In this document: one piece after another, positions 11,505 to 34,123 of the stretch
Layout of the letters: the number at the start of each line of letters is the position of its first letter
How positions within the stretch are numbered: position 1 is the stretch's first letter
Source of the DNA: a virus
Reading direction: 5' to 3' (one strand)
IMG/VR virus record: IMGVR_UViG_3300045284_000120
Location: 1 to 44,073 of that record
Length of the DNA stretch: 44,073 nt
Notes under the pieces: model-generated
Database searches by the model: none
What the model was told of the DNA's origin: nothing
What the model saw: the letters and a program-made list of their open reading frames with translations, nothing else
Program-made: the position numbers and the translations under genes

Positions 11505-12432
11505 TTCAAAGCGGGGTGGAATCCTCGCGAAAATTGAATCTGTTTACGGAACCGATCCGGTGCCGACCGCGGCAGTTAACGCCGTAGCGGTTATGAATCC
11601 GCAATACACAACCGACATGCAGGTCGTTGAGCGCGATCAGATTTTACGTGATTCGCTTTCACGCTTGTCGTTCGTCGTCGGCCGGAAGCTCGCGCGTTTG
11701 ACCTTTGGCGTTGAAATGAAGGGTAGCGGCACTGCGGGAACCGCGGCACGCCACGGCCCGCTACTTCGCGCCTGCGGACTATCGGAAACGATCGTCGCGG
11801 TGACTTCGGTTACTTACGCGCCAATCAATACCGGCTTCGAGTCGGTAACAATTTACTGGTACGACGGCGAAAAATTGCACAAACTAACCGGCGCGTTTTG
11901 CACGATGAGAATCGTTGAAGAGGTTGGGCAATTTGGCCGCTATGAGTTCACCGCAACCGGGATATGGAACCAGCCGACAGATGTTGCCGCGCCGGCAATG
12001 ACATTGGACACTACCAAGCCGCAACCGGTTATCAACTTGGGCTTGACTCTCGGCGGTTATTCGCCAGTCGCCGCAACACTGAACATTGATTTAGGCGTGC
12101 AGGTTAGTGAGCGATTGGATTTCAACGCAACAGAAGGCTTGCGCGGTTTGTTAGTCACTGGCCGCGGTGTGGGCGGATCGATTGACCCTGAGACAACTAC
12201 AGAGGCTATCAATCCGTGGTACGCAAATATGAAAAACGCTACAGAAGTGGCTCTCGCGGGTAATCTCGTCGGCGCAGTAGCCGGAAATAAAGTAGCGGTA
12301 ACGGCGCCTAAAGTTCAATTAGAGGCGCCGGCACCCGGCGAAAGAAATTCACTGCGCATTTTAAATATTCCGATTCGGTTCAATCCGTCTACTGATGCTC
12401 TCAACGACGAAATATCGCTCGTCTATACGTAA
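11494..12432 (+). CDS. Major tail tube protein
   Basis: 312 residues with a strong AGGAGG site 9 bases upstream. N-terminal SSKRGGILAKIESVYGTDPVP is the typical opening of long tail-tube proteins, which adopt a beta-barrel and stack as hexameric rings to form the tail tube. Beta-rich throughout with an Ig-like-sized extra segment between about residues 170 and 290. Followed by the chaperone pair and tape measure, the canonical order. Confidence 0.88.
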   Translation: MPISSKRGGILAKIESVYGTDPVPTAAVNAVAVMNPQYTTDMQVVERDQILRDSLSRLSFVVGRKLARLTFGVEMKGSGTAGTAARHGPLLRACGLSETIVAVTSVTYAPINTGFESVTIYWYDGEKLHKLTGAFCTMRIVEEVGQFGRYEFTATGIWNQPTDVAAPAMTLDTTKPQPVINLGLTLGGYSPVAATLNIDLGVQVSERLDFNATEGLRGLLVTGRGVGGSIDPETTTEAINPWYANMKNATEVALAGNLVGAVAGNKVAVTAPKVQLEAPAPGERNSLRILNIPIRFNPSTDALNDEISLVYT

Positions 12433-12459
12433 GAAAAAAACAGAAAGGAGAAAATCGCC

Positions 12460-12816
12460 GTGGATTTAAAAGACGCACTGCAAGAAGAAATCGAATACGC
12501 GATTAACTATCGCGGCGTCAAGTTATTCTTTACCCTACGCAACCCAAACAGCGCCGAGGATCTAGAGTTTCGCCGCCGCTCGGGAAAACTTAAAGCCAAA
12601 AACGGTAAGCTGGAATCCAGCGACGAAGCGTTAAATGCGCCGCTTTGGTTGCTCGATAAGGTTAAAACGAAAGTCGAGTATTCCAACGGCACGCCGCAAC
12701 GCACGGAAATGTCTGCGGACGAATACGAAAAGATTCCGGCGCGCACCAAGCTGGCGATTATCGCTAAACACCTGGCCGACCTTGAAGGCGAAGAGGCCGA
12801 AGTCCAAAAAAACTAG
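12460..12816 (+). CDS. Tail assembly chaperone, short form (gpG-like)
   Basis: 118 residues from a GTG with AAAGGAG upstream. Sequence is charged and helical, ending HLADLEGEEAEVQKN. The stop codon directly follows a slippery heptamer, so this is the unshifted product of a two-product gene, as in lambda G/GT. It binds the tape measure protein and guides tail assembly but is not in the virion in known systems. Confidence 0.88.
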   Translation: MDLKDALQEEIEYAINYRGVKLFFTLRNPNSAEDLEFRRRSGKLKAKNGKLESSDEALNAPLWLLDKVKTKVEYSNGTPQRTEMSADEYEKIPARTKLAIIAKHLADLEGEEAEVQKN

Positions 12817-13196
12817 CTCGGGAGCTGGGCGAATTTTTAGGGCTAACCGCCAAGACTCCTAAAGGCGACCGGTGCCCTTACGGTTTACCGCCGGATATCG
12901 AGATTGAGAGCGAAACGAAATGGACGATCAACGATATTCCGCAGACGGAAGCCGACCCGCGATTATGTCAATTGATAATCGCGCAACCGGATGCCTGCGC
13001 GACTTGTCCGCTGGCGGAAGTGGAACCGGAAGAGCCGCCGTCAAAGTTCGTTCAATACTTGGTTCACCTAGACAGCTTGATAGCAGTGGGCGCACGGATT
13101 CCGTTCGAGAGTCAGCCGATGGCCGTATGGAACGGGCTGAAACTACTCAAGATCAAGCGCGACGAGAAGACGATGCGGGACATGAAGGAAAAATAG
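12460..13196 (+). CDS. Tail assembly chaperone, -1 frameshift form (gpGT-like)
   Basis: A -1 slip on A-AAA-AAC at 12807-12813 bypasses the TAG at 12814 and opens 127 more codons to the TAG ending at 13196, giving 245 residues. The extension reads ELGEFLGLTAK, CPYGLPPDIE, then CATCPLAEVEPEE and KFVQYLVHLDSLI. In known tail chaperones the shifted form is the minor product and contacts the tail tube. The next gene is the tape measure, as expected. Confidence 0.88.
12807..12813 (+). promoter_or_regulatory. -1 ribosomal frameshift site A-AAA-AAC
   Basis: Zero-frame codons CAA AAA AAC TAG place A-AAA-AAC in the correct X-XXY-YYZ register; the stop codon follows at once. The -1 frame is open for 127 codons. 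This is one of the most efficient known bacterial slippery sequences. Confidence 0.9.
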
Positions 13197-13236
13197 TTCG
13201 CTTTGAGTTTCATAGTCTTGATGCGTTGAGGGCAGA

Positions 13237-16200
13237 GTGGCAACGCGGCAAATAGAAATAAAAATTACCGGTGAGGGTGGTCAATACGAGGCAACCGTCC
13301 AGCGGATTATTGAAAAGAATAATCAATTGAACCGCGCCGCCGTTCAAGGCGCGGAACAAACGACAACCGCCTTCGGGAACCTTCAGCGAATCCTTATCAA
13401 CATTCCAAGTCTATTCGGCGGAATTGCCGCCGGCATCGCCAGTGCGTTTAGTGTCGGCGCCATTATTGGCTTTACCAAACAAATTCTTAACGCCGCTGGC
13501 GAGATTGACGATCTATCCAAGAAAACAGGATTTAGCCGGCAAACGTTATCCGGCTTAAAAAGCACCATCGAAGAAAACGGCGGCTCGCTTCAAGCCTTCG
13601 CAACAGCAATCAACAAGGCACAAAAATCTTTAGGTGACATTGAGGGTGACGGAAAAAAGGCCGGTGAAGCTCTCGCGGCAATGGGACTCAATGTTAAGGA
13701 TTTGACTAAGGCATCACCGGAACAATTCTTTGAAAAGTTTGCTCAGTCGCTTTCTCAAGTCGAAGGGCAAAATCAGCGCGTGGCTATTGCTACTAAGGTG
13801 ATGGGCCGCGCCGGCGCCGATCAGATTCCGGTAATCTTGGAATTAACGGACAAGTTTAAGCAGTTAAGAGAGCAAGGCGTCAGCGATGACAACATCAAGC
13901 AGCTCGATAAATTCGGCGATGCGCTTACGCGGTTGAAAAACGCCACGATCGGTTTAGCGCAAGAGGGTTTGGCCAATCTTATCCGTGGATTCGATAGGCT
14001 CTTTAAGATCAGCGACATTGAGAAGCAGCGCGGCGCGCTTGCCGATTATGCGAAGCAAATAGAAAACATCGATAAAACTTTAAAGACGCGCGAAAGTTTG
14101 CGATCTAAGGGATTAGGTTTTTTAACCGGGTCTGATGATGCGGAGCAATTAAAGAACCGCAGCAAAGCTCTACAAGACTTTATCGACGCCAACGACAAGC
14201 TAATCAGGCTTGAGCAGGGTGATAAAGATAAGCCCGCAATCGGCGGCGGCTCGCTTCCGGCGGTCGATGATGGCGCACTCAAGCGTCAAAACGAGGCATT
14301 AGAGCAAGCTAAAACAAAACTGCTCCAATTAAAGCTAGCCAATGCCGAAGCGGCGCGCGCCGCGGGGGATCATACAGTCGAAGTTAGAGCCTTGGCGCTG
14401 GCTTTAATCGATCAGGAATACAAGGCTGCGATTAAAGCGGCTGAAGGAAACAAGTCATATACCGATCAATTAGGCGACACCCTTTTAGCCGAGAAGGCGC
14501 AAAAGATTGCGCAGTTTGAAGCCGCAGAAGCCGCGCTAAATTTAAAGCGCGTTCTTGAAGATGCAAATCGAGAATTAGAAACCCAAGCAGAGGATGCTAA
14601 GACAACGGCCGAGGCTTGGGGGTTTTACAAAACGAGTTTAGACAATGCAAATCAAGCCGCAGTCAAAGCTATCGAGACAACAAAACAGGTAAGCGACTTA
14701 GAGGCGGATCGATTAACCATCATCGGCAAAACTAGCGAGGCCGAACGCCTGCGTTTGGTGACGCAGCTTAAATACCTTCAAGCGTTAAAAGATCAAGAAG
14801 GCATAGAGAGTTTAAATGCGCCGCTACGTGAGGCGCAGATTAAAAATGTTGAAACTCAAATTCAGCAGCTTGGCACCGTCACCATCAATGTTGGACAAAC
14901 CATAGCGGACTCTGTTGGGGGCGCATTCTCGGGCGTCATTCTCGGGACGCGAAAACTCGCCGAAGTCGGCAAGGGATTCTTGGCCGCGCTGCTCGGCGAC
15001 GTTGGACAATTCTTTACGCAGGCGCTTATCAAAAAGTTTGGTTTTGAAAACATACTTCTAACTAATGCTCAAAGCATCGGGCCACAAATAGCCGGAGCGA
15101 TCAGCAGCGGCGGCGCGAGTAGTACTGGCGGCGGTGGTATTGTTGGAAATCTGTTAGGGGTGATTGGTAAACTCGGCGGCGGTTTTTCGTCGATGCTATC
15201 GGGACTTAGTAGCCTGCTAAGTGGCGGCGGCGGCTCGTTTGGTTTTGGCAGCGCGGCTGCGGGCGTAGCCGGGCCAGCATTTGCTAACGGAGGATTTTTT
15301 TCCGGTATCAGCGGGGCCGCAGCAGGATGGAGCGGTATTACCGGCACTATAATAAATGGCCTTAGCTCGGCGTGGACTGCTTTTAGCAATACTACTCTCG
15401 TTACAACAATAGGGAGCGCCATAGCTGAAGTCGGGGCAACCGTTGCCACAAGTCTTACTGCCGTACTGGACACTATTACGGCAGCGCTCGCTAACCCTGT
15501 AACTTGGATTGCCGCGATTGTAGTCGCAGCAATCACCGCCATTTACCGAATCATCGCCAATCAGCAGGAGCGGCCAAACGCTAAATTCAGCGGCACCTTT
15601 CAAGGCGTTTCGTTCGATGAGGCATCATCGCAATTTGTCCCTGGTGATATCAACGTAGCAATCGGCCGCAAGAGCGGAATTAAAAACTCAGATGCCGGGA
15701 AGATTGCCGACAATTTGCAGCAACGTTTGACGATACTCGCCCAACAATGGACGGACATTCTAAATATTTTCCCTGACTTTATCGCAGAAGATATCCAGCC
15801 GGCGCTTGATGAAACTAATCGGCGACTAAATCAAAACTTTAAGGATTTGAAATTGTCACCGGGCGGGAGCCGCAACATTCAGCAGGAACTCGAATCATTA
15901 TCCGGCTATGCGGGATTGTTTCGATTTTTCCAGGCATTCGCACCGAGCATTGAACAAGGATTTAGATCGTCGCTACAAGGTGGCGGAATTCAGATCGGGA
16001 GTGCCGCGGGATTTGCGAATCTCGATCCTAATCGTGGATTCAAATGGGGCGCGCCACAAGAAGATTGGGATAAATTTATTGCTGCCATCAAAGACGTTGC
16101 TGGCTTGACCAGTCAACTCGGCAGCGTCGGCGCAGGTAAATTTTTAAGCGGTAGTGATCTGACCAACATCGGCGGCTTGTTCGATCAATTGTTTTCCGTC

Positions 16201-18220: not shown

Positions 18221-19720
18221 GTGGCTGTAGTCTGGACAACCGTTGACCTCGTAGGCACCAAAAACGGTGTCAACGTCAATTTCGTTGTGCCGACCGTGCC
18301 CGACGGCACAACGCTTAGGATTATTTTCAACGGGCGGTTTCTCTATCGCGTTTCCGGCACCCCTACTGCTACCGAGTACGTCCAATCAGGCACAACGATC
18401 ACGCTCGGCCTTGCGCCTGCGGCTACCGATACCGCATGGGCAATGTTCAGCACAACGGGCGTTGTCCTTTCGTCGTCGTCTGTGCCGGCCGCCTCAAGGA
18501 AGAATTTCTATTGGACGATCGAATTAAGGGACAAAAACGGCTCGCTAATTGAAATCCTGCAACCGGACGTTAGCCGGCTGGGCTGGGAATACAACACCGT
18601 CGGCGGCTGCGGCGAATGCGAAATAGCGCTGCGCAGGGACTTTGACAATTACGGCGCCGTCGACTTGGACTGGGATGTTCAAATCTGGCGCGGCTATGAC
18701 CCGCTAGGCAGTCAAGGAACACGCCTACCAGCGCAGTTGCCGTTTGTCTTGGGCTCTACGTTAGCCGGCTCGCGGGAGCTGCGTTATAGCGGCTTTGTGC
18801 GTGAAATAACCCCTATTTTCGACGAGGTGGAGAGTGTCAGGCTTCGTTGTTCGGGCTACTCCCGGCAACTGGAATATCTGGCGGTATTCGACGCTACGAC
18901 GAGCGGGCCGGTGACCTATACCAATTTGGAAGTCAGCGCGATTGCGCGCGACCTGATCGATAGCTTTGTGGTGCTCGGCAGCAAAGTGAAGCGCACCGCG
19001 GCTTTGGCGCTCGTGCAGAATACCGGCGCCATTATCCAAGACGTAACGTTCAACGGCAGTGTTTGGGACGCTCTAAAATTCCTAGCCGATATCGGCGGCA
19101 ATGCGGAGTACGGCGTTAGGGCGGATCGTGAAATCTATTTTCTGCCGCGCCAAAACGTCAACAAGCAAACATATGTCCTCGGCAACAACGTCAAAATGTT
19201 TGAAGCGAGCCGAACCACCGACGATATTGTAAACCGCGTTTTTCTCCAGGGCGGCGACGGAACTTATTACAGGCTTGCAAACGGGGCTTACCAGTCGGGC
19301 TACCAGAAAGAGCGCGTTGTTTTGGTGCCGGCGATCAGCAACGCCACTGATGCCACGCTATGGGGAATCTCTTATTTTTCTCGGTTCGGCGCCTCGCAGC
19401 CGAAAGGGACGCTAAACCTAGCCGCAAGCGATGACTGGATTGAAAACGTGGGCAACCCGATTGGGCTCGTGCGCGTGCTTGGCGGGATCATGTTCATCTC
19501 AGGCACTACACGCCTACCGGCGCTGTTACCCGTGGAACTCGCCAAAACGCTCGGCGCAACTACGGATCAAAGTTTTCGCGTGGCGGGTGTTACCTATGCG
19601 CCGACGGAGAATGGCTTACAAATCAATATCCAACTCGGCGAGCGGTCAAGCAGTCTTGCCGATCAGTTTCGCAATATTGAGTATCAATTGGGATCCCTTC
19701 GGCAAGGACTGGCGGCATAA
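18221..19720 (+). CDS. Tail hub / Gp37-like tail protein
   Basis: 499 residues from a GTG. Residues 1-85 are a separate beta domain (TTVDLVGTKNGVNVNFVVP ... TITLGLAP) that recurs as the next gene. From about residue 100 the protein resembles the siphovirus ReqiPepy6 Gp37-like hub family: FYWTIELRDKNGSLIEILQP, GECEIALRRDFDNY, RYSGFVREITP, LRCSGYSRQLEYL and VNRVFLQGGDGTYY. Such proteins close the tail tip below Dit. Family call by recall, supported by order. Confidence 0.8.
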   Translation: MAVVWTTVDLVGTKNGVNVNFVVPTVPDGTTLRIIFNGRFLYRVSGTPTATEYVQSGTTITLGLAPAATDTAWAMFSTTGVVLSSSSVPAASRKNFYWTIELRDKNGSLIEILQPDVSRLGWEYNTVGGCGECEIALRRDFDNYGAVDLDWDVQIWRGYDPLGSQGTRLPAQLPFVLGSTLAGSRELRYSGFVREITPIFDEVESVRLRCSGYSRQLEYLAVFDATTSGPVTYTNLEVSAIARDLIDSFVVLGSKVKRTAALALVQNTGAIIQDVTFNGSVWDALKFLADIGGNAEYGVRADREIYFLPRQNVNKQTYVLGNNVKMFEASRTTDDIVNRVFLQGGDGTYYRLANGAYQSGYQKERVVLVPAISNATDATLWGISYFSRFGASQPKGTLNLAASDDWIENVGNPIGLVRVLGGIMFISGTTRLPALLPVELAKTLGATTDQSFRVAGVTYAPTENGLQINIQLGERSSSLADQFRNIEYQLGSLRQGLAA

Positions 19721-19963
19721 ATGGGAATCGGCCAGTGGAAAATTGTCGACCTGACGGGCACGAAAAACGGGAGCAATACCGCGTTTACGATTCCCGACGT
19801 GCCGGACCTCAGCACGCTGCTAGTCGTTTTCAATACTTCGAGCCTTTATCGCGTCGCATCAGCGCCAACGATCATGCAGTACACCATCAGCGGCACGACG
19901 ATAACTTTAGGCTTGGCGCCGAACTCAACCGATAAACTTTGGGCTAATTACGATGTGGCGTAA
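19721..19963 (+). CDS. Stand-alone copy of hub N-terminal domain
   Basis: 80 residues, ATG directly after the hub stop. Aligns along its length with residues 5-75 of the hub protein: VDLxGTKNGxN, xxPDxxxL, LYRV, SGTTITLGLAP and WA. This is an intragenic duplication that has become a separate gene. Probably a virion beta-sandwich, perhaps a carbohydrate- or tail-binding module; the function is inferred only. Confidence 0.82.
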   Translation: MGIGQWKIVDLTGTKNGSNTAFTIPDVPDLSTLLVVFNTSSLYRVASAPTIMQYTISGTTITLGLAPNSTDKLWANYDVA

Positions 19964-20996
19964 ATTTCTAATCTTATTTCTGTTGATTCCGGCGCTCGCC
20001 GACGCGCAACTTATCAGGCGGGAAACTATTCAGGCGGGTATTATTTTCTGTGACGACGCCACGGCTACCGACACCTATACTTGCCCAAACCCGACGCCGG
20101 CACTCGCTGCCTATGACTCTAAGATTCTGGTTATCTTCCGGCCAAATACCAACAACACCGGCACGGCGTCGTTAAATATTAGCGGATTAGGCGCGATCAC
20201 CATTGTTGCATTTGACGGCTCGACGCTTGCCAATAACGCGCTTGTTGCCGCCAGCCGCTATATCTTGGTTTATAACGGCACCAACTTTGTTTTGTATAAT
20301 CCAGCGACTTCCGGCGGCGGTTTATCCGGCCTGACTGATGATTTTATTTTAAAGGCCAACGGCACCACGGCAGCGGAAATCTCGACAATCAAGGACGACG
20401 GCGCCGGAAATATTAGTTATGGAACCGTCTCAGGGAACCGTCACGAGTTTACTTTTACCGCAGCGACGGCGGTGCGTACTATTACCTTCCCGAATGAATC
20501 GGGCACCCTTGCATTTCAAAAAATCAAAGCATCATGGGATGCCGACGCAATCACGCAAGACGGCACTTTCTGCACCGATCCTATCACTGGCCAGATTAAC
20601 AGTGGGCCGCGCACGCGATGGTTTCTCTGCGCGGACAACAACGGCTCAATTTTCGAGGGTAAAATAGTCAACCTACCTTACGCGATTACCGCGGCGGCGT
20701 TTACGGTGCTGCTCAATCACGCTACGACGGAATCAATTACCTTTGCCGGGGAGTTTTCGGCGCAGTGTCGTGCATCGGCAACGACGGTGAACAGCACTTG
20801 GGGAACCGCGGTTACGGCGAACGTAGCAATCACAACAGCAAATCAACCAGTACAGGCGACGGCGGCGGCTGTCATACCGAACGGAACATGCTCGGCCGGC
20901 TCAACGTTGTTTTGGCGTTATGTGGTTGTCGCTGCATCGTTTTCAGCCAACGCAGCCAACGCGCGCATCATGGGCGTTTACATGGCAGGTGAATAA
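19953..20996 (+). CDS. Tail-fibre-like protein with Sec signal peptide
   Basis: 347 residues, ATG overlapping the previous gene. N-terminus MWRKFLILFLLIPALADAQL is a textbook signal peptide with an A-x-A cleavage site before Gln. The middle carries fibre-type text: LKANGTTAAEISTIKDDGAG, then HEFTFTAATAVRTITFPNES and GTLAF, which recur in phage tail fibres. C-terminus is beta-rich. A secreted fibre is contradictory for a cytoplasmic assembly pathway. First of seven such genes. Confidence 0.85.
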   Translation: MWRKFLILFLLIPALADAQLIRRETIQAGIIFCDDATATDTYTCPNPTPALAAYDSKILVIFRPNTNNTGTASLNISGLGAITIVAFDGSTLANNALVAASRYILVYNGTNFVLYNPATSGGGLSGLTDDFILKANGTTAAEISTIKDDGAGNISYGTVSGNRHEFTFTAATAVRTITFPNESGTLAFQKIKASWDADAITQDGTFCTDPITGQINSGPRTRWFLCADNNGSIFEGKIVNLPYAITAAAFTVLLNHATTESITFAGEFSAQCRASATTVNSTWGTAVTANVAITTANQPVQATAAAVIPNGTCSAGSTLFWRYVVVAASFSANAANARIMGVYMAGE

Positions 20997-21653
20997 GTGC
21001 GGCATACTTATATAATACTTATTCTGCTTTTTTTTGCTGCCAACGCAGGCGCGGCGACGATTACGGATGACTTTACTCGCGCCGATAACTCGGACATTGG
21101 CGCGAATTGGGACAACGGCTATAGCACGTCGACGGCCTGCGCGATTGTTAATAACCGTGTCCGCAACCCGGCTTCCGGCGATGGGTGCGTAGAGACGTGG
21201 AATGCAAACTCATTTGCTAACAACCAATGGGCGCAGGCAAGTTTTGCAACATACGACACTACGTCAGTCGCTCGCATAGCGGTAATATTACGAGCGGCGA
21301 CGCCGCCAACCGGCGACTATTATCGGATCACGGCGCGTCGCAATTCCGGCGGCGCAACGACGACAATCCAAAAATTTATCGCCAACGTAGGAACTACGCT
21401 TGCAACCGAAAGCGCTATCACTTGGGCAACGGGCGACGTGTTGTATGCGGACGTATCCGGTACGACGATCACCGCCAAAAGGAACGGCGTCACAGTTTTT
21501 ACTGCCACCGATTCGGCTCTTACCGCGGGGCGGATCGGCTTATACATCTCGATTGATGGAACGGTTGACGGTGCGGAAATCGAAAGTTTTTCCGGCGGCG
21601 ATTTAACGACGGCGGGAGGCCGTCGCAAAGTGGGAGTGATGGCGTTTCAATGA
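20997..21653 (+). CDS. Secreted lectin-like protein
   Basis: 218 residues from a GTG. Signal peptide MRHTYIILILLFFAANAGAA with A-G-A cleavage site. The mature part begins TITDDFTRADNSDIGANWDN, the usual opening of LamG/concanavalin-like beta sandwiches, and includes YYRITARRNSGG and RIGLYISIDGTVDGAEIESF, which fit that fold. Probable glycan-binding module. Overlaps the next gene by ATGA. Confidence 0.8.
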   Translation: MRHTYIILILLFFAANAGAATITDDFTRADNSDIGANWDNGYSTSTACAIVNNRVRNPASGDGCVETWNANSFANNQWAQASFATYDTTSVARIAVILRAATPPTGDYYRITARRNSGGATTTIQKFIANVGTTLATESAITWATGDVLYADVSGTTITAKRNGVTVFTATDSALTAGRIGLYISIDGTVDGAEIESFSGGDLTTAGGRRKVGVMAFQ

Positions 21654-23356
21654 AACGCGGGTTTTTAGCCGGGTTTTTGTTACTTCTAGCAATAGATGCT
21701 GAAGCGGCGACCTATTGGGTAAAGGCCGGGACTAATAGCAGTTGCGCGGCAGCATCCGGTTCAAGTGACCCTGGTTTTTATCGAAGCACAATTACTAACG
21801 GACTATCCTGTCTTGCGCCGGGTGATACGCTCAACATCACGTCTGGTTCTTATGCAGAAAGGATCGTCGCCGGCACTAATATTTTCACCACGCAGTCAGG
21901 CACGTCCTACGCGAACGCAACAACAATTCAAGGCATAGGGACCGTGACCTTGAACAGCAGCGCGGGTAGCTGCATCCAACTTTCTACGCCGGCCGCTGGG
22001 ACGGTTTATCGGTATATTGTTTTCAAGAATTTTATCTGCGACGGTGCGGCCACTTCGCTTCCAGGTACGCAGTTCGGTTTAACGATTGGTGGCGGTGCCA
22101 ACGGCGGCACCATCGATCACATCAAGCTCGACGGGCTGGAAGTGAAAAATTATAAGCTCACGGCGGTTGGGGTTGGTGGGGATGATCAAGTCGGAACCGA
22201 CTTATGGGTGACGGGCTTGAGCGTCCACGATAACGGGACCGTGGCGGGCTTTACTTTGCCGGGCGATCCCAGCCCAAGTTATGGTCATTGTTTTTATGTA
22301 GAGGGCGGCGGCAACGCGATATTTGAATACAACATATGTAAAAACCAAGCCTCTCAGGGCTTCCAACAATATGCCTCTAACGCAGCGACGAATAATATAT
22401 ATCGCAACAACTGGGTTGAGAATACCGGGATAGCCGACGCTCGTGGTGCTTCGGCATTCGGTATTAGCAATGGAGATGGTGTAAAGATTTACAACAATAC
22501 AATCATTAACAACCAAAACGGCATCGGTTCGTCAGTCGCTAATGCTGTAATTTACAACAATACTCTCTACAACGACGGCATCGGCCATGTAGGGCCGGGC
22601 TGCTGCTATGCGGACATTCATATTGACGCGGGCAGTGCGACGGTAAAAAACAACCTTCTTTACAATAACGCTATCAATTCGATAGCGAGCCTTGGTGGTA
22701 CTCTCACCCAATCCAACAATTTAGCAACTTCAACCGATCCATTTATTAACGCAGCGGCTAAAGATTTTAGACTGAAATCCACTTTTTCGGCGGCTATCGA
22801 CCAAGGGACGGCCAACATCGCGCCGGGGATTACGATACCCGCATGTTCAGGGGGCACGACTACGGGTTGCTACAACGGCACCGCGCCGGACATTGGGGCG
22901 ATGGAAACCGGCGTTCCTACTGCTGGCGGCGGACCGCCAACGATCACGCCTAATCTTACCAGCGTTGGCGCGGGCGCGCCGATTTTACTTACTGTCGATG
23001 ACGACGACGTAAATGAACGTATAGAAGTGACCGGCGATTGGATAGGCATATTCGCGCCAGGCGCAGCCGTGCCGGCGGGTGGAGTCATTGACGGGATAGC
23101 TTTGTTCGATTGGTTTTATATGAACGGCAGTAAAACCTCGCCGGCGTTAGCTATCAGTGACGCCGTTATCCCATTTACTGCGCCGACAACGCCGGGAAAA
23201 TATGAATTCCGCTTTTATCAGGACAACTCAAACTTAGAAGTCGACAGGTTGGCTACTGCGGCGTTTACGGTTATCACGTCGGGCATCGTGATGAAGTTTA
23301 ACATCAGTACTTTGAAAATTGGGCCAAGCGTCACTTGGAAAATTGGGACGCCATGA
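21650..23356 (+). CDS. Secreted right-handed beta-helix protein
   Basis: 568 residues. Signal peptide MKRGFLAGFLLLLAIDAEAA (A-E-A site). Residues 20-400 are a pectate-lyase-type parallel beta-helix: repeated YNNT, IYNNTIINNQNG, VIYNNTLYNDG and KNNLLYNNAI rungs, with GDTLNITSGSYAER at the N-terminal cap. The C-terminal part, EVTGDWIGIFAPGAAVPAGG to GKYEFRFYQD, is an Ig-like domain. Beta-helix tailspikes often cleave polysaccharide; no catalytic residues can be named here. Confidence 0.85.
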   Translation: MKRGFLAGFLLLLAIDAEAATYWVKAGTNSSCAAASGSSDPGFYRSTITNGLSCLAPGDTLNITSGSYAERIVAGTNIFTTQSGTSYANATTIQGIGTVTLNSSAGSCIQLSTPAAGTVYRYIVFKNFICDGAATSLPGTQFGLTIGGGANGGTIDHIKLDGLEVKNYKLTAVGVGGDDQVGTDLWVTGLSVHDNGTVAGFTLPGDPSPSYGHCFYVEGGGNAIFEYNICKNQASQGFQQYASNAATNNIYRNNWVENTGIADARGASAFGISNGDGVKIYNNTIINNQNGIGSSVANAVIYNNTLYNDGIGHVGPGCCYADIHIDAGSATVKNNLLYNNAINSIASLGGTLTQSNNLATSTDPFINAAAKDFRLKSTFSAAIDQGTANIAPGITIPACSGGTTTGCYNGTAPDIGAMETGVPTAGGGPPTITPNLTSVGAGAPILLTVDDDDVNERIEVTGDWIGIFAPGAAVPAGGVIDGIALFDWFYMNGSKTSPALAISDAVIPFTAPTTPGKYEFRFYQDNSNLEVDRLATAAFTVITSGIVMKFNISTLKIGPSVTWKIGTP

Positions 23357-23637
23357 TTTTTAGAATAATAATTCTGCTTTTGCTTTTTCCCGGTGTCGCC
23401 TTAGCCCGCGATCCTGCGCAGGTGCGCGCGTTTCGCAAAAGCAATCCATGTCCGGTGACACAGAAAACGACGGGCGCTTGTCCCGGTTTTGTAGTCGACC
23501 ACATTGTGCCGTTGTGTTTCGACGGCGCCGATTTACCGGGCAACATGGCATGGCAGGAAGTAAGGGCAAGTTACAAAAAGGATGTGTTCGAGCGCCAAGC
23601 GTGCGCGTTAAAAAAGAAAATGATTGATCTGAAATGA
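23353..23637 (+). CDS. Secreted HNH nuclease
   Basis: 94 residues; start overlaps the previous stop (ATGA). Signal peptide MIFRIIILLLLFPGVALA with A-L-A site, so the mature protein is about 76 residues. It contains CPVTQKTTGACPG, then the HNH-like core FVVDHIVPLCFDGADLPGNM, then YKKDVFERQAC. The four Cys suit an oxidising periplasm (disulphides) or zinc. An exported DNase may degrade DNA at the envelope, for instance of a superinfecting phage; this is inference. Confidence 0.82.
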   Translation: MIFRIIILLLLFPGVALARDPAQVRAFRKSNPCPVTQKTTGACPGFVVDHIVPLCFDGADLPGNMAWQEVRASYKKDVFERQACALKKKMIDLK

Positions 23638-23647
23638 AAGCGGCCCG

Positions 23648-23971
23648 ATGAATAAGTATCGAATAATTTTAATCGGGAGCGTGATTTTTTGGTTGATTGT
23701 GGTTATCGCGGTTGGTTGGCAGATTCTTTTACGTCTAGCGGTCCGCGCGAATATGGCATCTTTCCTTATGATTGCGGTTGTCAGCGCAGCCGAGCCGGAA
23801 GATAAGGAACTGCAAATTTTACAACTCCAAAAAATCATCGCCGAGCAATCAATGGCGCAGCTTATGAGGGACGAGATGGTGAAAGAGTACGTCAGGATTC
23901 GCGGCAACTATGACAAGCTCAACGCGGATATCGAAGCCAAGGAAAAAGCCAGGGGGAAAAAGAGCGAATGA
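23648..23971 (+). CDS. Membrane-anchored coiled-coil protein
   Basis: 107 residues, one N-terminal membrane helix (YRIILIGSVIFWLIVVIAVG) and a second hydrophobic stretch (MASFLMIAVVSAA), then a charged coiled-coil tail from about residue 55 (EPEDKELQILQLQKIIAEQ). Topology resembles an inner-membrane spanin or a signal-anchored protein. Stands between secreted HNH and two secreted fibre genes. Confidence 0.7.
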   Translation: MNKYRIILIGSVIFWLIVVIAVGWQILLRLAVRANMASFLMIAVVSAAEPEDKELQILQLQKIIAEQSMAQLMRDEMVKEYVRIRGNYDKLNADIEAKEKARGKKSE

Positions 23972-24621
23972 AAAAGATTGTAGCTTTTATATTTGCTTTT
24001 AGTTTGTGGACCGGATCTCCGTGCTTCGCCGCTTGGCACTTGTACTTAGTTCCTGTCATCGGCGCCGGCACAAACGATGCCGCCGATGCTCGCCAACCTA
24101 AGTATGTAGCAGCGCTAAGTGGTGTTAAGTGGGGCGCGGTAGATTACGGTTTTCAACCCTTCATGTTAGTCGCCGCCGATGTGGACGGCGCAACTGATAC
24201 CGCAGCGACAGCACAACCGGACGTGACTAGGATACCTGACAACCTAGATCAATTGATTGGCGCGGGTGCGCTAGGGGCGGTGCAGACGGCGTTGGAAAAT
24301 AGAAATATCCCTGCGGGATGGGTTACTGCTGCGCTCAGTTATAGAACGGTACTGAGGACTATTTGGGGGTTTTTCGCTTTTATCCAACGCTATTCGGTTG
24401 TCTCAGGCAATACCAACCCTATACTTGCCGCGTCAATAAACCTAGATACGCAATTCAATCAATTACCTTCAGGGGCGCAAACTAATTTGCAAACTACGGC
24501 GACGAGTCTGGGCTTGAGCGCGGCAGGGCTTACGGGAACAAGTACGCTTAGACAAATCCTGAAAAACATTTCGGACCAATGGGGTCAACGAGCCTTTACG
24601 GTGGGCGGTATTACTATATGA
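23968..24621 (+). CDS. Secreted hypothetical tail-region protein
   Basis: 217 residues. Signal peptide MKKIVAFIFAFSLWTGSPCFA with a C-F-A site; nearly the same signal sequence as the next gene. Mature part AWHLYLVPVIGAGTNDAADA, then a Gly/Ala/Thr-rich helical C-terminus. No known domain. Overlaps the next gene by ATGA. Probably an appendage or envelope protein of the same group as its neighbours. Confidence 0.75.
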   Translation: MKKIVAFIFAFSLWTGSPCFAAWHLYLVPVIGAGTNDAADARQPKYVAALSGVKWGAVDYGFQPFMLVAADVDGATDTAATAQPDVTRIPDNLDQLIGAGALGAVQTALENRNIPAGWVTAALSYRTVLRTIWGFFAFIQRYSVVSGNTNPILAASINLDTQFNQLPSGAQTNLQTTATSLGLSAAGLTGTSTLRQILKNISDQWGQRAFTVGGITI

Positions 24622-25442
24622 AAAAATTTATAGCCTTTATATTCGCGCTTACGCTTTGCGCGGTAGCATCGCCAAGCTTTGCTGCATCCGGCTGCACCTA
24701 TCCCGGCACGCTCGACTCATATGTTGACAAGATAGCCGGTGACTTTTTGACGCTGGCGGATGTAAACAGCCGCAGTTGCGCAATTGAAAAACTAGAAACC
24801 GGCCCGCTCCGTCCTAACGACGGTACCGCGGCCGCGCCAGCTTACGCTTTTCGGTCGGCTGCGAGTTCCGGCATGTACTACACAAGCGGCTCGCCCTTGA
24901 TTGGTTTTTCAATAGGCGGGGTGACTGTAGGGACAATTACCAGGGCTGCATCATCCGTCAATTTTATAAATCTACTCGCAACGGCTACGGGTACAGGGCC
25001 GCAAATTGTTTCGGCTGGCACGGATACGAATGTGCCGCTGGTTTTAAATACCAAAGGTACGGGGGTTATAAACCTTGCCGTCGGCGGGACTATCATGCAG
25101 GCCATCGACAGCAGCGGCCGCATTTCTTTTGGCACGACGCAACTCGCCGGCACAGGCGCAAACGATGTAATCATAAAAAATTTAGCATCGGTGCGTGCTG
25201 TAAATGCGGCTGGGACGAGCACCTTGCAGACCGTAACCCTTGACGCTTCCGACCGGTTACTTCTCGGTGGTACAGGCGTCACAGATATAATTTGGTCCAA
25301 AGCGCTAGTAACGCTAGGCGCCGGCTCTACGGCAACGCTCGGCTTGGCCGGTACACCGGGGCCAACAACGTCAACTCAAAACAGTTGGATGCGTGTTGTT
25401 GATTCTTCTAATAATGCTTTTTTTGTACCGGCGTGGAAATGA
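24618..25442 (+). CDS. Tail-fibre protein with Sec signal peptide
   Basis: 274 residues from the ATG at 24618, which overlaps the previous stop. Signal peptide MKKFIAFIFALTLCAVASPS ending FA (P-S-F-A site). The mature part has the well-known fibre motif GTAAAPAYAFRSAASSGMYY, then GFSIGGVTVGTITRAA, repeated beta segments and LLGGTGVTDIIW. This clearly is fibre-type sequence, yet the gene starts with an export signal. Confidence 0.87.
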   Translation: MKKFIAFIFALTLCAVASPSFAASGCTYPGTLDSYVDKIAGDFLTLADVNSRSCAIEKLETGPLRPNDGTAAAPAYAFRSAASSGMYYTSGSPLIGFSIGGVTVGTITRAASSVNFINLLATATGTGPQIVSAGTDTNVPLVLNTKGTGVINLAVGGTIMQAIDSSGRISFGTTQLAGTGANDVIIKNLASVRAVNAAGTSTLQTVTLDASDRLLLGGTGVTDIIWSKALVTLGAGSTATLGLAGTPGPTTSTQNSWMRVVDSSNNAFFVPAWK

Positions 25443-25455
25443 AAAGGAAAATCCT

Positions 25456-26109
25456 ATGAAATTTAGATGGCTGTTTCTAGCGTTCGCGTTGCTCGGCTTA
25501 CCGGCTATAGCTAACGCGCAGAAAACCTGTACACCTCTGACCGCTACCTCGCAGAACTGTGTTGTGACGCTGACTTGGGCGATCACCGGCGTTGACGCAA
25601 CGCACCCGGCGCCGACGAGTTTTCAACTCAGGCGTGGCGACGGCGGCGGCCCAAAGTCTGTAATTGGCACGGTAAACGCGCCGACGATGTTGTTGCAAAA
25701 TACCTTCACCGATAGCGGCGGCGTCGATCACTGTTGGGACGCGGTTAGCATTCTTGGCCCTGCGTCAAGTGTTGCATCGACGCAAGCGTGCTGGACCTCG
25801 CCGGCAATCGTAGTGCAGGGGCCGCTTGTGCCGCCAACGCCGAGCGGGTTTACCGTGTCGTCGGTGTCGTCAGGTACGATTGAGCTTAGTTGGGCAACAA
25901 CGGACATGGCTGAGGCTTACAAATGGGAGCGACGGAAAGGCAATCAACCAAAACTAATAGAGAAAACTGGGACGGTACTGGCTGCTATTACGAGCTATCG
26001 GGATAGTTATTTAAGACGGGCGACAACATACTGTTATGACGTGGCGGCAATTAATGTATCGGGGATTTCGGGCGCTACTCCTGTATTGTGCGCGACGACA
26101 AGACCTTGA
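25456..26109 (+). CDS. Secreted fibronectin type III protein
   Basis: 217 residues, AAAAGGAAAATCC upstream. Signal peptide MKFRWLFLAFALLGLPAIAN with A-N-A site. Two fibronectin type III-like domains follow: one with VTLTWAITGV ... SFQLRRG, the other with GTIELSWATTDMAEAYKWER and TTYCYDVAAINVSGIS. Cys pairs suggest disulphides. Likely surface-binding module of the secreted group. Confidence 0.85.
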   Translation: MKFRWLFLAFALLGLPAIANAQKTCTPLTATSQNCVVTLTWAITGVDATHPAPTSFQLRRGDGGGPKSVIGTVNAPTMLLQNTFTDSGGVDHCWDAVSILGPASSVASTQACWTSPAIVVQGPLVPPTPSGFTVSSVSSGTIELSWATTDMAEAYKWERRKGNQPKLIEKTGTVLAAITSYRDSYLRRATTYCYDVAAINVSGISGATPVLCATTRP

Positions 26110-28164: not shown

Positions 28165-28332
28165 ATGACGGACAGCGCGCTAGAAATCGTCGGCTTTGCA
28201 TTTCGTACACTATTTTATCAATGCCTAATTTTAGGCGTAGGCGTTTTAAACATCGTGATTGACAACTATCTAGTAATTCTTTTGATCCTGCTCGTCTGTG
28301 TCGGCGTGCGCATGGTTTGGAGAGTGAGATAA
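28165..28332 (+). CDS. 55-residue two-TM membrane protein
   Basis: Begins MTDSALEIVGFAFRTLFYQC and consists almost entirely of hydrophobic segments (CLILGVGVLNIVI; LVILLILLVCVGVRMVW). Two helices with a very short loop. Stop is 2 bases before the lipoprotein start. A minimal holin or antiholin is possible. Confidence 0.65.
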   Translation: MTDSALEIVGFAFRTLFYQCLILGVGVLNIVIDNYLVILLILLVCVGVRMVWRVR

Positions 28333-28334
28333 TT

Positions 28335-28712
28335 ATGAAGGACATTAATGTCTTTATAGCGCGGGCTAATTTCTTTGCGGCGCTCGCTATTTTTATGGCC
28401 ATGCTGGCTATCGTGTTGAGCCTTACCGGTTGCACCGCGCGGGATCAATCGGCAAAGACAATAGCGACTTATGAGATCAGCGCGGATGGTATCAAGAAAA
28501 TTAATTACGAAAGCACGAAGGAACAGCAAGGGCTAACCTTCGACTTGCAGGAAGAGAGCGGCAAGGTCAAGAGCGTTAAGATCCGCGCCGATCGATCAAC
28601 CACCAATGATGAGTCGGTGACAGCATCAATGGCGGTGCAGTTAAAGATGCTGGAATTATTACAGACCTTAACGGGGCTTGCGGCAAAAGCGGCGATGACC
28701 GGCGGAAGCTGA
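28335..28712 (+). CDS. Lipoprotein
   Basis: 125 residues from ATG 28335 (an upstream in-frame ATG at 28317 is less likely). Hydrophobic segment AALAIFMAMLAIVLSLTGCT with the lipobox LTGC, so a lipid-anchored protein after cleavage by signal peptidase II. The rest is a charged domain with YEISADGIKKINYES and a coiled-coil-like tail. Could be an outer-membrane spanin partner. Confidence 0.78.
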   Translation: MKDINVFIARANFFAALAIFMAMLAIVLSLTGCTARDQSAKTIATYEISADGIKKINYESTKEQQGLTFDLQEESGKVKSVKIRADRSTTNDESVTASMAVQLKMLELLQTLTGLAAKAAMTGGS

Positions 28713-28915
28713 TGACCGAACTCGAAATCATCGACAAGGTTTACGAAAATTGGGTTGAGCAAGCAACGGCACAGTTGTTTTCGGTACTGATACTTGAGGA
28801 CAATAACGGGACCGTTGCTCACGAGAGCGCGGAGCGCCGATTCAGATACGCGCTAAAAATGGCGGCGGGCACACGCGACCGCGCCAAGGGTTTGATTCAA
28901 GGGACGGAACGATGA
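28712..28915 (+). CDS. Small helical hypothetical protein
   Basis: 67 residues, start overlapping the lipoprotein stop (TGATGA), end overlapping the next start (ATGA). Charged alpha-helical sequence (AERRFRYALKMAAGTRDRAK). Function unknown. Confidence 0.72.
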   Translation: MTELEIIDKVYENWVEQATAQLFSVLILEDNNGTVAHESAERRFRYALKMAAGTRDRAKGLIQGTER

Positions 28916-30522
28916 CCACCGCAAACGAATTTTGGCAAGGCTATGCGCCGGAAGTGAAGGTGCAGCCGGGCAATCCCGAGGCGCAAAAGTACGGCAAAAT
29001 GTGGGAGCGGCCGGAATATCGCGTGATGGCGCCGGGTGAGATATTCGCCGGGTTGTTTCTTACCATAGCGAAGCCTGCGAAAGGGGCTCGGGTAATCGAC
29101 TTCGGTTGTGGAACCGGCCGCGGTGCTGCGAAGCTCGCGCAGGCAGGGCTGCAAGTCACGATGATTGATTTCGTGCGTAATTGTCTTGATCCGGCAGTTA
29201 AGGACATAGTCGACGGGCCAGATCCTAAACTCTATTTCATCAAAGGCGATTTGGAAAAGCCTATCGCCGTCACTGCGGAGTATGGCTTCTGCACCGATGT
29301 CATGGAACATATTCCGCCGGATAAAGTCGGCGTCGTGCTCGATAATATCCTCAAGGCCGCGCAGCACGTCTGGGTTTCAATCGCCATGTTTGAAGATGCT
29401 TGCGGCGAGCTAATCGGCGAAAAGCTGCACTTGTCGGTGCATAAGTTTGACTGGTGGCGTGCGCAATTCGAGGCACGCGATTGCGTGATAAAATACGGAC
29501 AGAGTACAGGCGACGGCAAATATGCTCACTTCTACGTTTCCGCTTGGCAGGACGGCAAGGCGATTGTTGAGCATGGTGTAATAAATACCGAGCAGGAACA
29601 GATACGCACCAACGTCCGGCATAACTGCGAACAGGGCTGGACGCCATGCCAGCCACACGAGGGCAACGATTTTGAGTGCATGATTCTCGGCGGCGGGCCG
29701 TCTATGGCTGCTTTCGAGGACGAGATAAAAAAGAATCGCGCCGACGGGGTAAAATTGCTCACTCTTAACGGAGCATATAATTGGGCAGTGCATCACGGCA
29801 TTACCCCGTCGGCGCAGATCGTTGTCGATGCGCGGGCGTTCAATGCGCGGTTTGTTGATCCAGTTGTGGACGGCTGCAAATATCTGATTTCTTCGCAATG
29901 CGATCCGTCGGTGTTTGATAAACTGCCGCAAAATTGGCGCATTCGTCGGCCTGATGGTGAATTTCAACGATGGGGGCATGGTCGAGAAGATGCCGGGCAC
30001 ATTTTAGAATATGACTCCGAAGAAGATGCGAGACAGACATGCAACTATTTGGCGAATGATTACGCCATTACTGGCTTAGTGCCGGAATTATTTATTAGTA
30101 CCTATATATGGCACACCTCGGCGGAAATGATCGCGGATATTTTGCAAGAGTTTTATCCAATCCAGTATTGGGCGATACCCGGCGGCTCGACGGTGCTGTT
30201 GCGGGCGATTCCATTGATGCGGATGCTCGGCTATCGCAAGTTTATTCTTTATGGGTGTGATTCCTGCGTCACCAACGGCAATCATCACGCCTACGAGCAA
30301 AAAGAAAACGATAGCGAGCCGGTATTTCCGGTTGTAGTTAATCCCGGCGGGCGCGTTTTCCAATGCACGACTTGGCAAATTTCACAGGGGCAGGAGTTCA
30401 TTGATTTGATTCGCTACCTTGGCGAGGAAATCGAGCTAGACGTTAGGGGCGACGGGCTATTGAGTCATATTTTGCAGGTGGGTGCGGAGCAGGCGGAGAT
30501 TCAAGAGATTAAGCTGGACTGA
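28912..30522 (+). CDS. Fusion: methyltransferase plus DUF115-like domain
   Basis: 536 residues. N-terminal half is a class I methyltransferase: motif I VIDFGCGTGRG (61-71), then VTMIDFVRN and FCTDVMEHIPPDKVG. The C-terminal half from about 255 matches the DUF115/MptE-like fold of Maf flagellin-modifying proteins: CMILGGGPSMAAFEDEIKK, LLTLNGAYNWAVHHGI, IVVDARAFNARFV and GGSTVLLRAIPLMRMLGYRK. DUF115 members transfer sugars or bind nucleotide-like substrates. Overlaps both neighbours. A role in modifying phage or host glycans is inferred. Confidence 0.85.
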   Translation: MTTANEFWQGYAPEVKVQPGNPEAQKYGKMWERPEYRVMAPGEIFAGLFLTIAKPAKGARVIDFGCGTGRGAAKLAQAGLQVTMIDFVRNCLDPAVKDIVDGPDPKLYFIKGDLEKPIAVTAEYGFCTDVMEHIPPDKVGVVLDNILKAAQHVWVSIAMFEDACGELIGEKLHLSVHKFDWWRAQFEARDCVIKYGQSTGDGKYAHFYVSAWQDGKAIVEHGVINTEQEQIRTNVRHNCEQGWTPCQPHEGNDFECMILGGGPSMAAFEDEIKKNRADGVKLLTLNGAYNWAVHHGITPSAQIVVDARAFNARFVDPVVDGCKYLISSQCDPSVFDKLPQNWRIRRPDGEFQRWGHGREDAGHILEYDSEEDARQTCNYLANDYAITGLVPELFISTYIWHTSAEMIADILQEFYPIQYWAIPGGSTVLLRAIPLMRMLGYRKFILYGCDSCVTNGNHHAYEQKENDSEPVFPVVVNPGGRVFQCTTWQISQGQEFIDLIRYLGEEIELDVRGDGLLSHILQVGAEQAEIQEIKLD

Positions 30523-31682: not shown

Positions 31683-31708
31683 GAAGCCTTCCAAAATTGG
31701 AGGGCTTC
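31683..31708 (+). promoter_or_regulatory. Hairpin enclosing the ribosome site of the next gene
   Basis: GAAGCCTTCCAA at 31683-31694 can pair with TTGGAGGGCTTC at 31697-31708 (one G-T pair). The 3' arm holds GGAGGG, the Shine-Dalgarno for ATG 31712. In RNA this would mask the ribosome site. Confidence 0.6.
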
Positions 31709-31711
31709 ACT

Positions 31712-32206
31712 ATGGCGGCAGGGACATGGAAAATTTATACCAAGGCCAAAAAAATTATTGGAACGGGTGGCGGGGCGATGACTGCTGGTGGAATTACTTT
31801 AGGAGTAGGAGTTTTTAAACTTTCACTGCACAGAGCAAGCGCTAGTGCTAACATCCTCAAAGTCTCAATCGGCGGTATTTCAACTTTTGCGTCTGTACCG
31901 GGCGAGATAAGCGCGGTTGGCGGCTATGTCGCAGCAGGGCGCAACTTGCTACCGGCAACCGGACAGTGGACAACCGGCGCAAGCACTAAGCAATTAAAAT
32001 TCACTTACTCGACGGTTGGGCTTGTGTATACGGCGAGCGGCGCGAGCTTGAGTAATATCAAGTATGCGCTGATCCGCACATCGTCGGGCGCGGCCGCAGG
32101 CAAGGTGCTTTGCTTCTGCACGTTGTCAACGGCGGCGTTTACGATTACGAGCCCAAATACGCTCACAATATTGCCTGCGGCGACGGGCGTGTTCACCTTG
32201 GCTTAG
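31712..32206 (+). CDS. Phage appendage protein
   Basis: 164 residues, GGAGGG 8 bases upstream (the longer in-frame TTG start at 31697 is unlikely). MAAGTWKIYTKAKKIIG, ITLGVGVFKLSLHRAS and ASVPGEISAVGGYVAAGRNL recur in phage appendage/structural proteins as I recall them. Beta-rich; likely part of the virion tail tip. Confidence 0.75.
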   Translation: MAAGTWKIYTKAKKIIGTGGGAMTAGGITLGVGVFKLSLHRASASANILKVSIGGISTFASVPGEISAVGGYVAAGRNLLPATGQWTTGASTKQLKFTYSTVGLVYTASGASLSNIKYALIRTSSGAAAGKVLCFCTLSTAAFTITSPNTLTILPAATGVFTLA

Positions 32207-32217
32207 GTCAAAGTGTT

Positions 32218-33375
32218 GTGGCTTTCCCGTTTGACCTAGCCGTTGGCGCATGGGGAATATCGCCGTCGGTCGGCAATTACCGCCTAAACGATGTCGCTGT
32301 AAGTCCGAGTCCCGGCGGCGTGGTATCGCAGATCATGTCCGAGTGGGGCGGCGCCTGCTACGACACGACTCGAAAAGATTTGCTCGTCGCCGGGGGTGGT
32401 CATACAAATTATGCGGGCAACGAAATATATGCTTTTAGTGTGGACTCTAGTAGCGGAAATTTTTTGACTTGGCGGCGCAAGATAACAGCGTCGACACGAA
32501 CAGACGGAACCGCTATAGAGGAATATTCAGACGCCACGCCATCGTCATCGCATACCTATTGCGGCTTGCTGTATTTGCCTGTTCAAGACGTAATGGTCAG
32601 ATTGCCGGGGGTTTATACGTTTGGTTCGACTGGTACATTTACAATAAGAACATATCATTTTGCTGCTTCAACCGAGACGCCTACTTCGACGGGTGCGGGA
32701 AAATGGACGCGTAAAGACGATGCACCTACAATTTCTCCCGGCGGTGCCCCCGGCCCGCGCGCCGATGCCGTGTATAGCGCAAGCACCGGGTTTGTTTTTG
32801 CGCAGCATCTTAACGGATTGGCGCGATATGACCCTTCGGCAGGGACATGGACAGGCGTCACAACGGCTGAGGGGCCACAAGGCTTAACCCATACTGCTGA
32901 TGCGTTAGCGCTCACCAGTCCGGAAAAATTTGTCCGCGTCGGCGACGGGCACACCTATATTCGCCAAATAACGACTCCTTACTCCTATGTTGATTCAGAG
33001 AGCGGGGCAACCACTAGCGGGAATACGGCGATTGAAGGCGTTGGGGTTTTACCGGGTTGCCTTTGGGATACAAACGGCAGTCAAATCGTCTGCTGGGCTG
33101 GAACGCTGACGGGCGGCACGGACAACCGAGATTATTACACGCTTAACGTAGCAACTAAAGTATGGACACGACACGCGGGAACCGGAGATACGCCGGATAA
33201 TCCCACGAGCAATGGAATGTATGGCCGATTCTTCTATGTAGGCGACGGGCTTTGTGGGGTAGTCAATACAACGACATCGAATGTTTATTTTCTAAGGGTG
33301 AGCGCCTCGACTGTCCCGCCTGGCGATCCGGTTGGTTCAATTCGGCCGCGGACTACTGTTTCGATCGTGCCGTAA
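32218..33375 (+). CDS. Kelch/galactose-oxidase-like beta-propeller adhesin
   Basis: 385 residues from a GTG at 32218; the frame is open further upstream but overlaps the previous gene. Propeller-type blades: WGGACYDTTRKDLLVAGGGH, GLLYLPVQDVMVRLPG, GAPGPRADAVYSASTGF and ATKVWTRHAGTGD, with the Gly-Gly and Trp spacing of kelch repeats. Likely binds glycans. No signal peptide, in contrast with the earlier adhesin group. Confidence 0.75.
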   Translation: MAFPFDLAVGAWGISPSVGNYRLNDVAVSPSPGGVVSQIMSEWGGACYDTTRKDLLVAGGGHTNYAGNEIYAFSVDSSSGNFLTWRRKITASTRTDGTAIEEYSDATPSSSHTYCGLLYLPVQDVMVRLPGVYTFGSTGTFTIRTYHFAASTETPTSTGAGKWTRKDDAPTISPGGAPGPRADAVYSASTGFVFAQHLNGLARYDPSAGTWTGVTTAEGPQGLTHTADALALTSPEKFVRVGDGHTYIRQITTPYSYVDSESGATTSGNTAIEGVGVLPGCLWDTNGSQIVCWAGTLTGGTDNRDYYTLNVATKVWTRHAGTGDTPDNPTSNGMYGRFFYVGDGLCGVVNTTTSNVYFLRVSASTVPPGDPVGSIRPRTTVSIVP

Positions 33376-33379
33376 ATTT

Positions 33380-34123
33380 ATGCCAGACATTACGAGCAAT
33401 TTAGTAGGTTACTGGGCGCTCGACGACGGAACCGGAACGACTGCGATCGATTCGGGCTCTGGAGCTAATAACGGGAGTTTGATTAATACGCCGACGTGGT
33501 TATTGCCTGGAAAGATAGGTGCGGCTGCGTTAACTCTCAATGGGTCAAATCAGTACGTTACTATGGTAGACCCGGTGAATCTCAGACCCGGCACTAACGG
33601 CTTCACGGTGGCGGCATGGGTGAAAACAACGATGACTGCAAGGGGAATGATTTTCACGAGCTACCATGCATTTTTAGATTTAATTATGTTTGAAATGGGC
33701 AGAAATGCCGCTGGCCGTTTCAATTTTGAATGGCGCGATCAGACGAGTGCTAATGGTTTCGAATATACCGGTGCAACTTACAATGACGGCAACTGGCATC
33801 ATCTGGCGGGCGTGCAGCGTCAGACCGACGGAGTTTATTTATTTGCAGACGGTTTGCCGATTGGCAATGTGTCACAACCTACCCTCACTTCTAGCCTCTC
33901 CACAAATGCGCAGGCTTGGCAAATCGGTGCCTACGACGGCGCCAACGCTCCATTTAACGGTTCCGTTGATGACGTGCGATTTTATCATCGCTCGCTCGCC
34001 GATGCTGACATTGCGGCTTTATTCGCTCTAGGTGCTGCCGGACCCGCCACCGCAAAAGCCTTCTATACTAATTTTCAGAAAACTAAACTCCGTCAACCGA
34101 TTACTGCGGGGAGGGTGATATAA
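33380..34123 (+). CDS. LamG/concanavalin-like adhesin
   Basis: 247 residues from ATG 33380 (a longer in-frame start at 33332 overlaps the previous gene). Canonical LamG text: LVGYWALDDGTGTTAIDSGS, LTLNGSNQYVTM, FTVAAWVKTT, DGNWHHLAGVQRQTDGVYLF and VDDVRFYHRSLADADIAALF. Binds carbohydrate or protein ligands; expected at the tail tip. Confidence 0.9.
   Translation: MPDITSNLVGYWALDDGTGTTAIDSGSGANNGSLINTPTWLLPGKIGAAALTLNGSNQYVTMVDPVNLRPGTNGFTVAAWVKTTMTARGMIFTSYHAFLDLIMFEMGRNAAGRFNFEWRDQTSANGFEYTGATYNDGNWHHLAGVQRQTDGVYLFADGLPIGNVSQPTLTSSLSTNAQAWQIGAYDGANAPFNGSVDDVRFYHRSLADADIAALFALGAAGPATAKAFYTNFQKTKLRQPITAGRVI

Follow-up and report, generated by a model that had tools for sequence, protein, structure and literature searches.

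The window analysed here is the whole of a 44,073-bp virus contig from IMG/VR (IMGVR_UViG_3300045284_000120, both ends open), and it carries at positions 19953-26109 a block of eight genes whose products very probably leave the cytoplasm, the compartment in which phage particles are built. This reading relies on three features of the sequences: the predicted Sec signals are specific to the block, they are conserved in a related phage (IMGVR_UViG_3300010375_000042, here called L016), and the numbers of cysteines in the mature proteins are even. Location in the periplasm, removal of the signal and formation of disulfides are the presumed fate of these proteins. Virions of tailed phages are, by the textbook account, assembled entirely in the cytoplasm. 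The genes of the block lie close together on one strand, overlapping by 4 bases at 21650, 23353, 23968 and 24618, and they encode the following proteins.

19953-20996, plus strand: fibre-like protein of 347 residues, Sec signal MWRKFLILFLLIPALADA followed by Q, six cysteines in the mature part
20997-21653, plus strand: lectin-like or virion-type protein of 218 residues, Sec signal, two mature cysteines
21650-23356, plus strand: right-handed beta-helix protein of 568 residues (assigned through its L016 orthologue), Sec signal, ten mature cysteines
23353-23637, plus strand: small HNH-nuclease-like protein of 94 residues, Sec signal, four mature cysteines
23648-23971, plus strand: coiled-coil-like protein of 107 residues bearing a signal or an anchor, absent from the preliminary description of this DNA
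23968-24621, plus strand: protein of an environmental phage family, 217 residues, Sec signal, with a signal-free homologue
24618-25442, plus strand: fibre-like protein of 274 residues, Sec signal, two cysteines, N-terminus conserved and C-terminus divergent
25456-26109, plus strand: fibronectin-III-like (Fn3-like) protein of 217 residues, Sec signal, six mature cysteines

Signals were called with a rule-based predictor of Sec signals cleaved by signal peptidase I (SPase I), not with SignalP; it picks the best start in each open reading frame (ORF), which favours matches, and the controls had the same freedom. In its calibration, ten E. coli signal peptides score between 11.9 and 14.0 and six negatives score 7.2 or less. 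The seven signal-peptide genes of the preliminary description are present at the starts it gave, and they score 11.2-14.0, within the range of known signals. Each has a positive n-region, a hydrophobic h-region and a c-region with an AxA-type cleavage site: ADA↓Q in 19953, AGA↓A (or ANA↓G) in 20997, AEA↓A in 21650, ALA↓R in 23353, CFA↓A in 23968, SFA↓A in 24618 and ANA↓Q in 25456. Six of them reach a score of 12, and 23968 has 11.15. Only 7 of the 230 six-frame ORFs of the window (at least 50 residues) score 12 or more, and all are inside 19953-26109; these are the same six genes and 23648, which scores 13.2 with an unusually long N-terminus and whose L016 counterpart begins MRESLPTIVMMAIALLLALVVSRVSFGAEPEDK. 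With 23648 included, though it is atypical, all eight genes of the block bear a signal or an anchor. Thirty random genomes from a second-order Markov model contain a mean of 0.4 ORFs at 12 or more, and in eleven other phage contigs 4 of 295 ORFs reach 12 and 1 of 295 reaches 13.

In L016 the order 19953, 20997, 21650, 23648, 24618, 25456 is kept, while the HNH-like gene is placed elsewhere and the orthologue of 23968 is near the opposite end of the contig. Signals are retained on all seven L016 orthologues, weakly on the HNH-like one. Gene 19953 and its orthologue are 78% identical overall; their n- and h-regions have diverged, while PALADAQLIRRETIQ and the mature part hardly differ. Such divergence, confined to the predicted signal part, is the usual pattern of signal peptides.

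Counterparts that lack the signal are also found. A homologue of 23968 in L047 (59% identical) starts M-AWHLYLVPVIG exactly at the predicted cleavage point of the window protein, and the homologue in L041 carries a signal. The L047 homologue of 20997 is also signal-free, and the fibre domain of 19953 is common to signal-free phage fibre-like proteins (L002-L007, L010, L012-L014 and L021) and is found in the prophage tail-region genes L075 and L076. As these counterparts of 19953, 23968 and 20997 show, ordinary phage modules have acquired (or shed) export signals with a clean junction at the N-terminus.

Cysteine content points the same way. Cysteine makes up 1.67% of the mature exported proteins of the window and 0.53% of its structural proteins that are not exported (p=1e-5). 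A parity rule, which takes genes on the structural strand that score at least 12, have at least 90 residues and have neither a lipobox nor a second membrane segment, kept 25 genes from seven phage records; 23 have cysteines in the mature part, and the count is even in 23 of 23. These 23 genes represent about 15 blastp families, so the sampling is not fully independent, and one of them, L055:468, resembles a lipoprotein that the filter missed (22 of 22 are even when it is left out). Between relatives the counts differ by two, with no cysteine in 23968 of the window and two in L041, and six in 19953 and eight in its L016 orthologue. Cysteines are thus gained or lost in pairs, as seen in disulfide-bonded periplasmic proteins, which is a supporting and not a strictly defining feature.

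Grouped by blastp, the window's exported proteins belong to separate families and have no N-terminal domain in common. Two of them had been credited with clear fibre motifs: for 19953 this is borne out by its domain, which occurs in the signal-free phage fibres, and for 24618 only the style of the sequence recalls a fibre, as no match was found in Pfam, PHROGs, NCBIfam, PDB or phages, and its sole relative is the L016 orthologue (38% identical overall, with strong conservation at residues ~25-80). Gene 20997 matches the virion structural protein family phrog_2804 (E=2.8e-5) and, weakly, PF23918. The orthologue of 21650 in L016 is 43% identical, has 10 cysteines as well and matches PF13229 Beta_helix (E=4e-12). 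Gene 25456 matches PF00041 (E=7e-4) and phrog_7440 (E=2e-5), and its L016 orthologue (47%) has four cysteines. In 23353 the HNH-like motif VVDHIVPLC..GAD..NM is conserved and the L016 orthologue is 68% identical, although its HNH profile matches are below the cut-off (phrog_589 E=0.07; Cas8f-HNH in the PDB search E=0.39). An HNH-like gene with a signal-like start is also present between head genes of the Manatee Spring podovirus MW202512 (L022:15843-16121); it is 57% identical to 23353 across most of the mature part and has its own PF01844 match at E=0.033. The block proteins have almost no matches in 50,697 phage records, and searches of cultured-phage DNA and proteins returned only this one HNH-like relative.

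Several related phages from soil and other environments also have predicted export signals, on genes of the head region as well as of the tail region. TerL of G002, G007 and G015 is 55-80% identical to that of the window, and G014 has no TerL match. In G002 the gene directly behind the major capsid gene encodes a signal-bearing protein of 142 residues with four cysteines; the head operon of L052/G015 has its homologue, behind a capsid-like gene and two signal-free genes.

L045, 10071-10499, minus strand: small signal-bearing head-operon protein with four cysteines
L052, 8045-8473, plus strand: small signal-bearing head-operon protein with four cysteines

G015 also encodes, at the far (tail) end, a fibre-like signal-bearing protein of 527 residues with 10 cysteines. 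In G007 three signal-bearing genes are found in the structural region, one of them below the stricter parity rule, and the signal-bearing genes of L047/G014 encode one fibre-like protein, one protein of 844 residues with 22 cysteines and one Fn3-like protein. Decoration-like signal genes are placed by the capsid gene and fibre-like ones by the tail tip. A comparable block of signal-bearing structural genes was not found in three more distant prophage regions scanned in TerL-matched genomes.

For the block we tentatively prefer an accessory role in virions or in adhesion, with proteins that mature in the periplasm and are available to virions at lysis; this is favoured by their kinship to virion modules and by the position of each kind next to the corresponding virion gene. 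The late structural module would encode virion-type modules (fibre, lectin-like, beta-helix, Fn3) together with a small HNH-like nuclease, each with a Sec/SPase I signal. In a host that is probably diderm, Sec alone would deliver the proteins to the periplasm; there they would be cleaved, form disulfides and accumulate while heads and tails are assembled in the cytoplasm. At lysis, the oxidised and stable proteins may meet the virions and serve in accessory adhesion or decoration, whether on the particles, on debris or on surfaces close by. Export of soluble proteins that are freed at lysis would be sensible only if folding requires the oxidising periplasm or if they act before lysis. A stricter form of this idea, a two-compartment assembly in which this phage group sends fibre- and decoration-type virion proteins via Sec, forms their disulfides in the periplasm and adds them to particles at or after lysis, is possible but doubtful.

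Several points weigh against an accessory virion role. The literature searched gave no tailed-phage precedent for virion parts routed through the periplasm, and no virion-binding domain was identified in the block proteins. The HNH-like nuclease is no obvious virion part and its genomic position shifts; it better fits a role in the envelope or on the surrounding matrix. AlphaFold models of 21650 and 19953, from two-sequence alignments, had a pLDDT (predicted local distance difference test) of about 40 and were discarded. An envelope role before lysis would also account for export equally well.

This envelope role is a possible but rather unlikely explanation. Before the cell lyses, the proteins would work in the periplasm or at the outer surface and obstruct receptors or incoming DNA, with superinfection exclusion or receptor masking as the outcome; the fibre and lectin domains would bind phage receptors and the HNH-like protein would cut entering DNA. 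The T5 protein Llp, for example, masks the T5 receptor. Real Sec signals and a nuclease-like gene among the exported ones suit this explanation, as does Lom of lambda, a signal-bearing gene that adjoins tail genes (PMC12309495). However, the genes form a compact part of the late structural module and are not set apart like a moron, and eight different proteins are many for a single exclusion function. The preliminary description had proposed that the proteins are displayed or secreted and that they bind glycans, prevent superinfection or mask the cell. What stands of it is the presence of real Sec signals on fibre-, lectin- and enzyme-like genes of the tail region, which is unexpected, and their export is supported by the cysteine pairing and by conservation in relatives. 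Surface display or secretion is possible but unsupported, as the seven proteins have no outer-membrane beta-barrel, autotransporter, lipobox or known surface anchor, and none matches a Lom/Ail-type outer-membrane domain in Pfam. A virion role after lysis fits at least as well as surface display.

It is unlikely that the block makes a secreted cocktail which acts on the matrix, although its mix of domains is like that of secreted bacterial enzymes and the phages are of metagenomic origin. Here the beta-helix, lectin, Fn3 and HNH-like proteins, secreted or released by lysis, would act on polysaccharide, extracellular DNA and debris and ease the diffusion of virions in soil. Any catalytic residues of the beta-helix are putative, and lysis frees cytoplasmic proteins too, so that only disulfides or action before lysis would call for export.

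Lysogenic conversion, in which proteins made by the prophage alter the surface of the lysogen, is improbable. Exported phage proteins are known in lysogens, as for Lom (PMC12309495), but the block is embedded in the structural module, where its gene starts overlap, and the genes scanned include no recognised integrase, a weak argument since the record is open-ended and the scan covered part of its genes. That the proteins are not exported at all, and their hydrophobic N-termini are assembly or membrane-contact segments or arise by chance, is very improbable: the export call rests on sequence prediction, but the calibration and chance rates of the predictor, the even cysteine counts, the cleavage motif of 19953 conserved beside diverged n- and h-regions, and the signal-free homologue of 23968 that starts at the cleavage point all argue against it.

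Outside the block, the window has a packaging and head module of HK97 type, the genes of a tail and a second fibre-like block.

756: TerL (HK97-type packaging and head genes)
2623: portal (HK97-type packaging and head genes)
6633: protease (HK97-type packaging and head genes)
7240: capsid (HK97-type packaging and head genes)
13237: tape-measure-like gene
17199: Dit (PF22768, phrog_33), upstream of the tail-tip gene
18221-19720, plus strand: tail-tip protein of 499 residues without signal peptide, the final large ordinary tail gene ahead of the exported block
19721-19963, plus strand: gene of 80 residues without signal, a copy of the tail-tip N-terminal domain, overlapping the start of 19953
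31697-37146, plus strand: second fibre-like block (kelch, LamG and repeat proteins), signal-free and cysteine-poor, which serves as an internal contrast

The orthologue of the tail-tip gene in L016 is 74% identical and likewise directly upstream of the exported block, and the counterpart of 19721-19963 in that phage is matched by the tail-tip profile (E=4e-20). Base composition of the exported block, both GC and GC at third codon positions (GC3), matches that of the remaining phage, so recent acquisition of the block as cargo from a host is not supported. In the second fibre block the LamG domain matches PF13385 (E=3e-24), and a protein of 603 residues (34988-36799) is made of many short repeats (ITPxxGxLxLxGxxP), which have similar forms in G007 and in L042:10253-11542. 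The second fibre block of the L016 phage includes a protein of 591 residues (L041:1438-3213) with the twin-arginine-like start MNRRDFLK. It matches the choice-of-anchor Q domain NF041518 (E=7e-14) and, below the cut-off, PF10518 TAT_signal (E=0.0028), and has nine cysteines, an odd number; twin-arginine (Tat) export of a folded fibre-like protein is possible. A methyltransferase domain fused to an MptE-like domain (PF01973) is encoded at 28912-30522 and also at 12254-13696 of the L016 phage.

A gene at 28317-28712 has a lipoprotein-like start (LTGC lipobox) and may encode an outer-membrane spanin, which is consistent with a diderm host; a similar gene is found in L016 at 11347-11730. The DNA of the region resembles no cultured phage, and the search for a host with the tail-tip protein matched no genome. 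The search with TerL gave one weak match, in an Acidovorax metagenome-assembled genome, and matches of 40-48% in 4 of 398 genomes of the phylum of that genome.

The export is well supported and such genes are seen in several lineages of uncultured phages; this means either that certain virion components reach maturity in the periplasm or that phages field an unrecognised set of exported adhesins during infection. Annotation pipelines could flag such genes by combining signal prediction with gene position. The literature searched, in which subscription journals are poorly covered, yielded no account of a tailed phage with a whole block of virion-type proteins that are exported. Ordinary tail fibres share the domain of 19953 but have other N-terminal regions and no signal. 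Coat proteins pIII and pVIII of filamentous phages are virion proteins with signal peptides; those phages, however, assemble at the membrane, whereas the phage of the window is tailed and its heads and tails are expected to assemble in the cytoplasm. Mosaic adhesive trimer (MAT) fibres of Bdellovibrio are, like the proteins of the block, phage-fibre-like and signal-bearing and act outside the cytoplasm, and they are exported by the bacterium (PMC10769870). MATs share a conserved beta-rich N-terminal domain of ~130 residues right after the signal (PMC10769870), are encoded by the bacterium and serve in prey recognition, whereas the proteins of the block are short and mutually unrelated. No MAT chain was found in the PDB searches (queries A1, A3 and A4), and Pfam gave no match to the S74 chaperone, which is a weak argument as MATs without S74 exist. 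Endolysins with signal peptides are proteins of tailed phages that use the host Sec pathway (PMC8951688), but they are single lysis enzymes, while the block encodes proteins of structural type. The closest precedents, along with the MAT fibres, are Lom, an exported protein encoded in the tail region of lambda (PMC12309495), which the same predictor finds with a score of 13.5, and similar phage outer-membrane proteins; here too a signal-peptide gene stands among siphophage tail genes. Lom is a single outer-membrane beta-barrel, while the block combines several types of domain (fibre, lectin, beta-helix and Fn3-like), and its cysteines are paired. The exported tailed-phage proteins known so far, such as Lom and the endolysins, are single cases.

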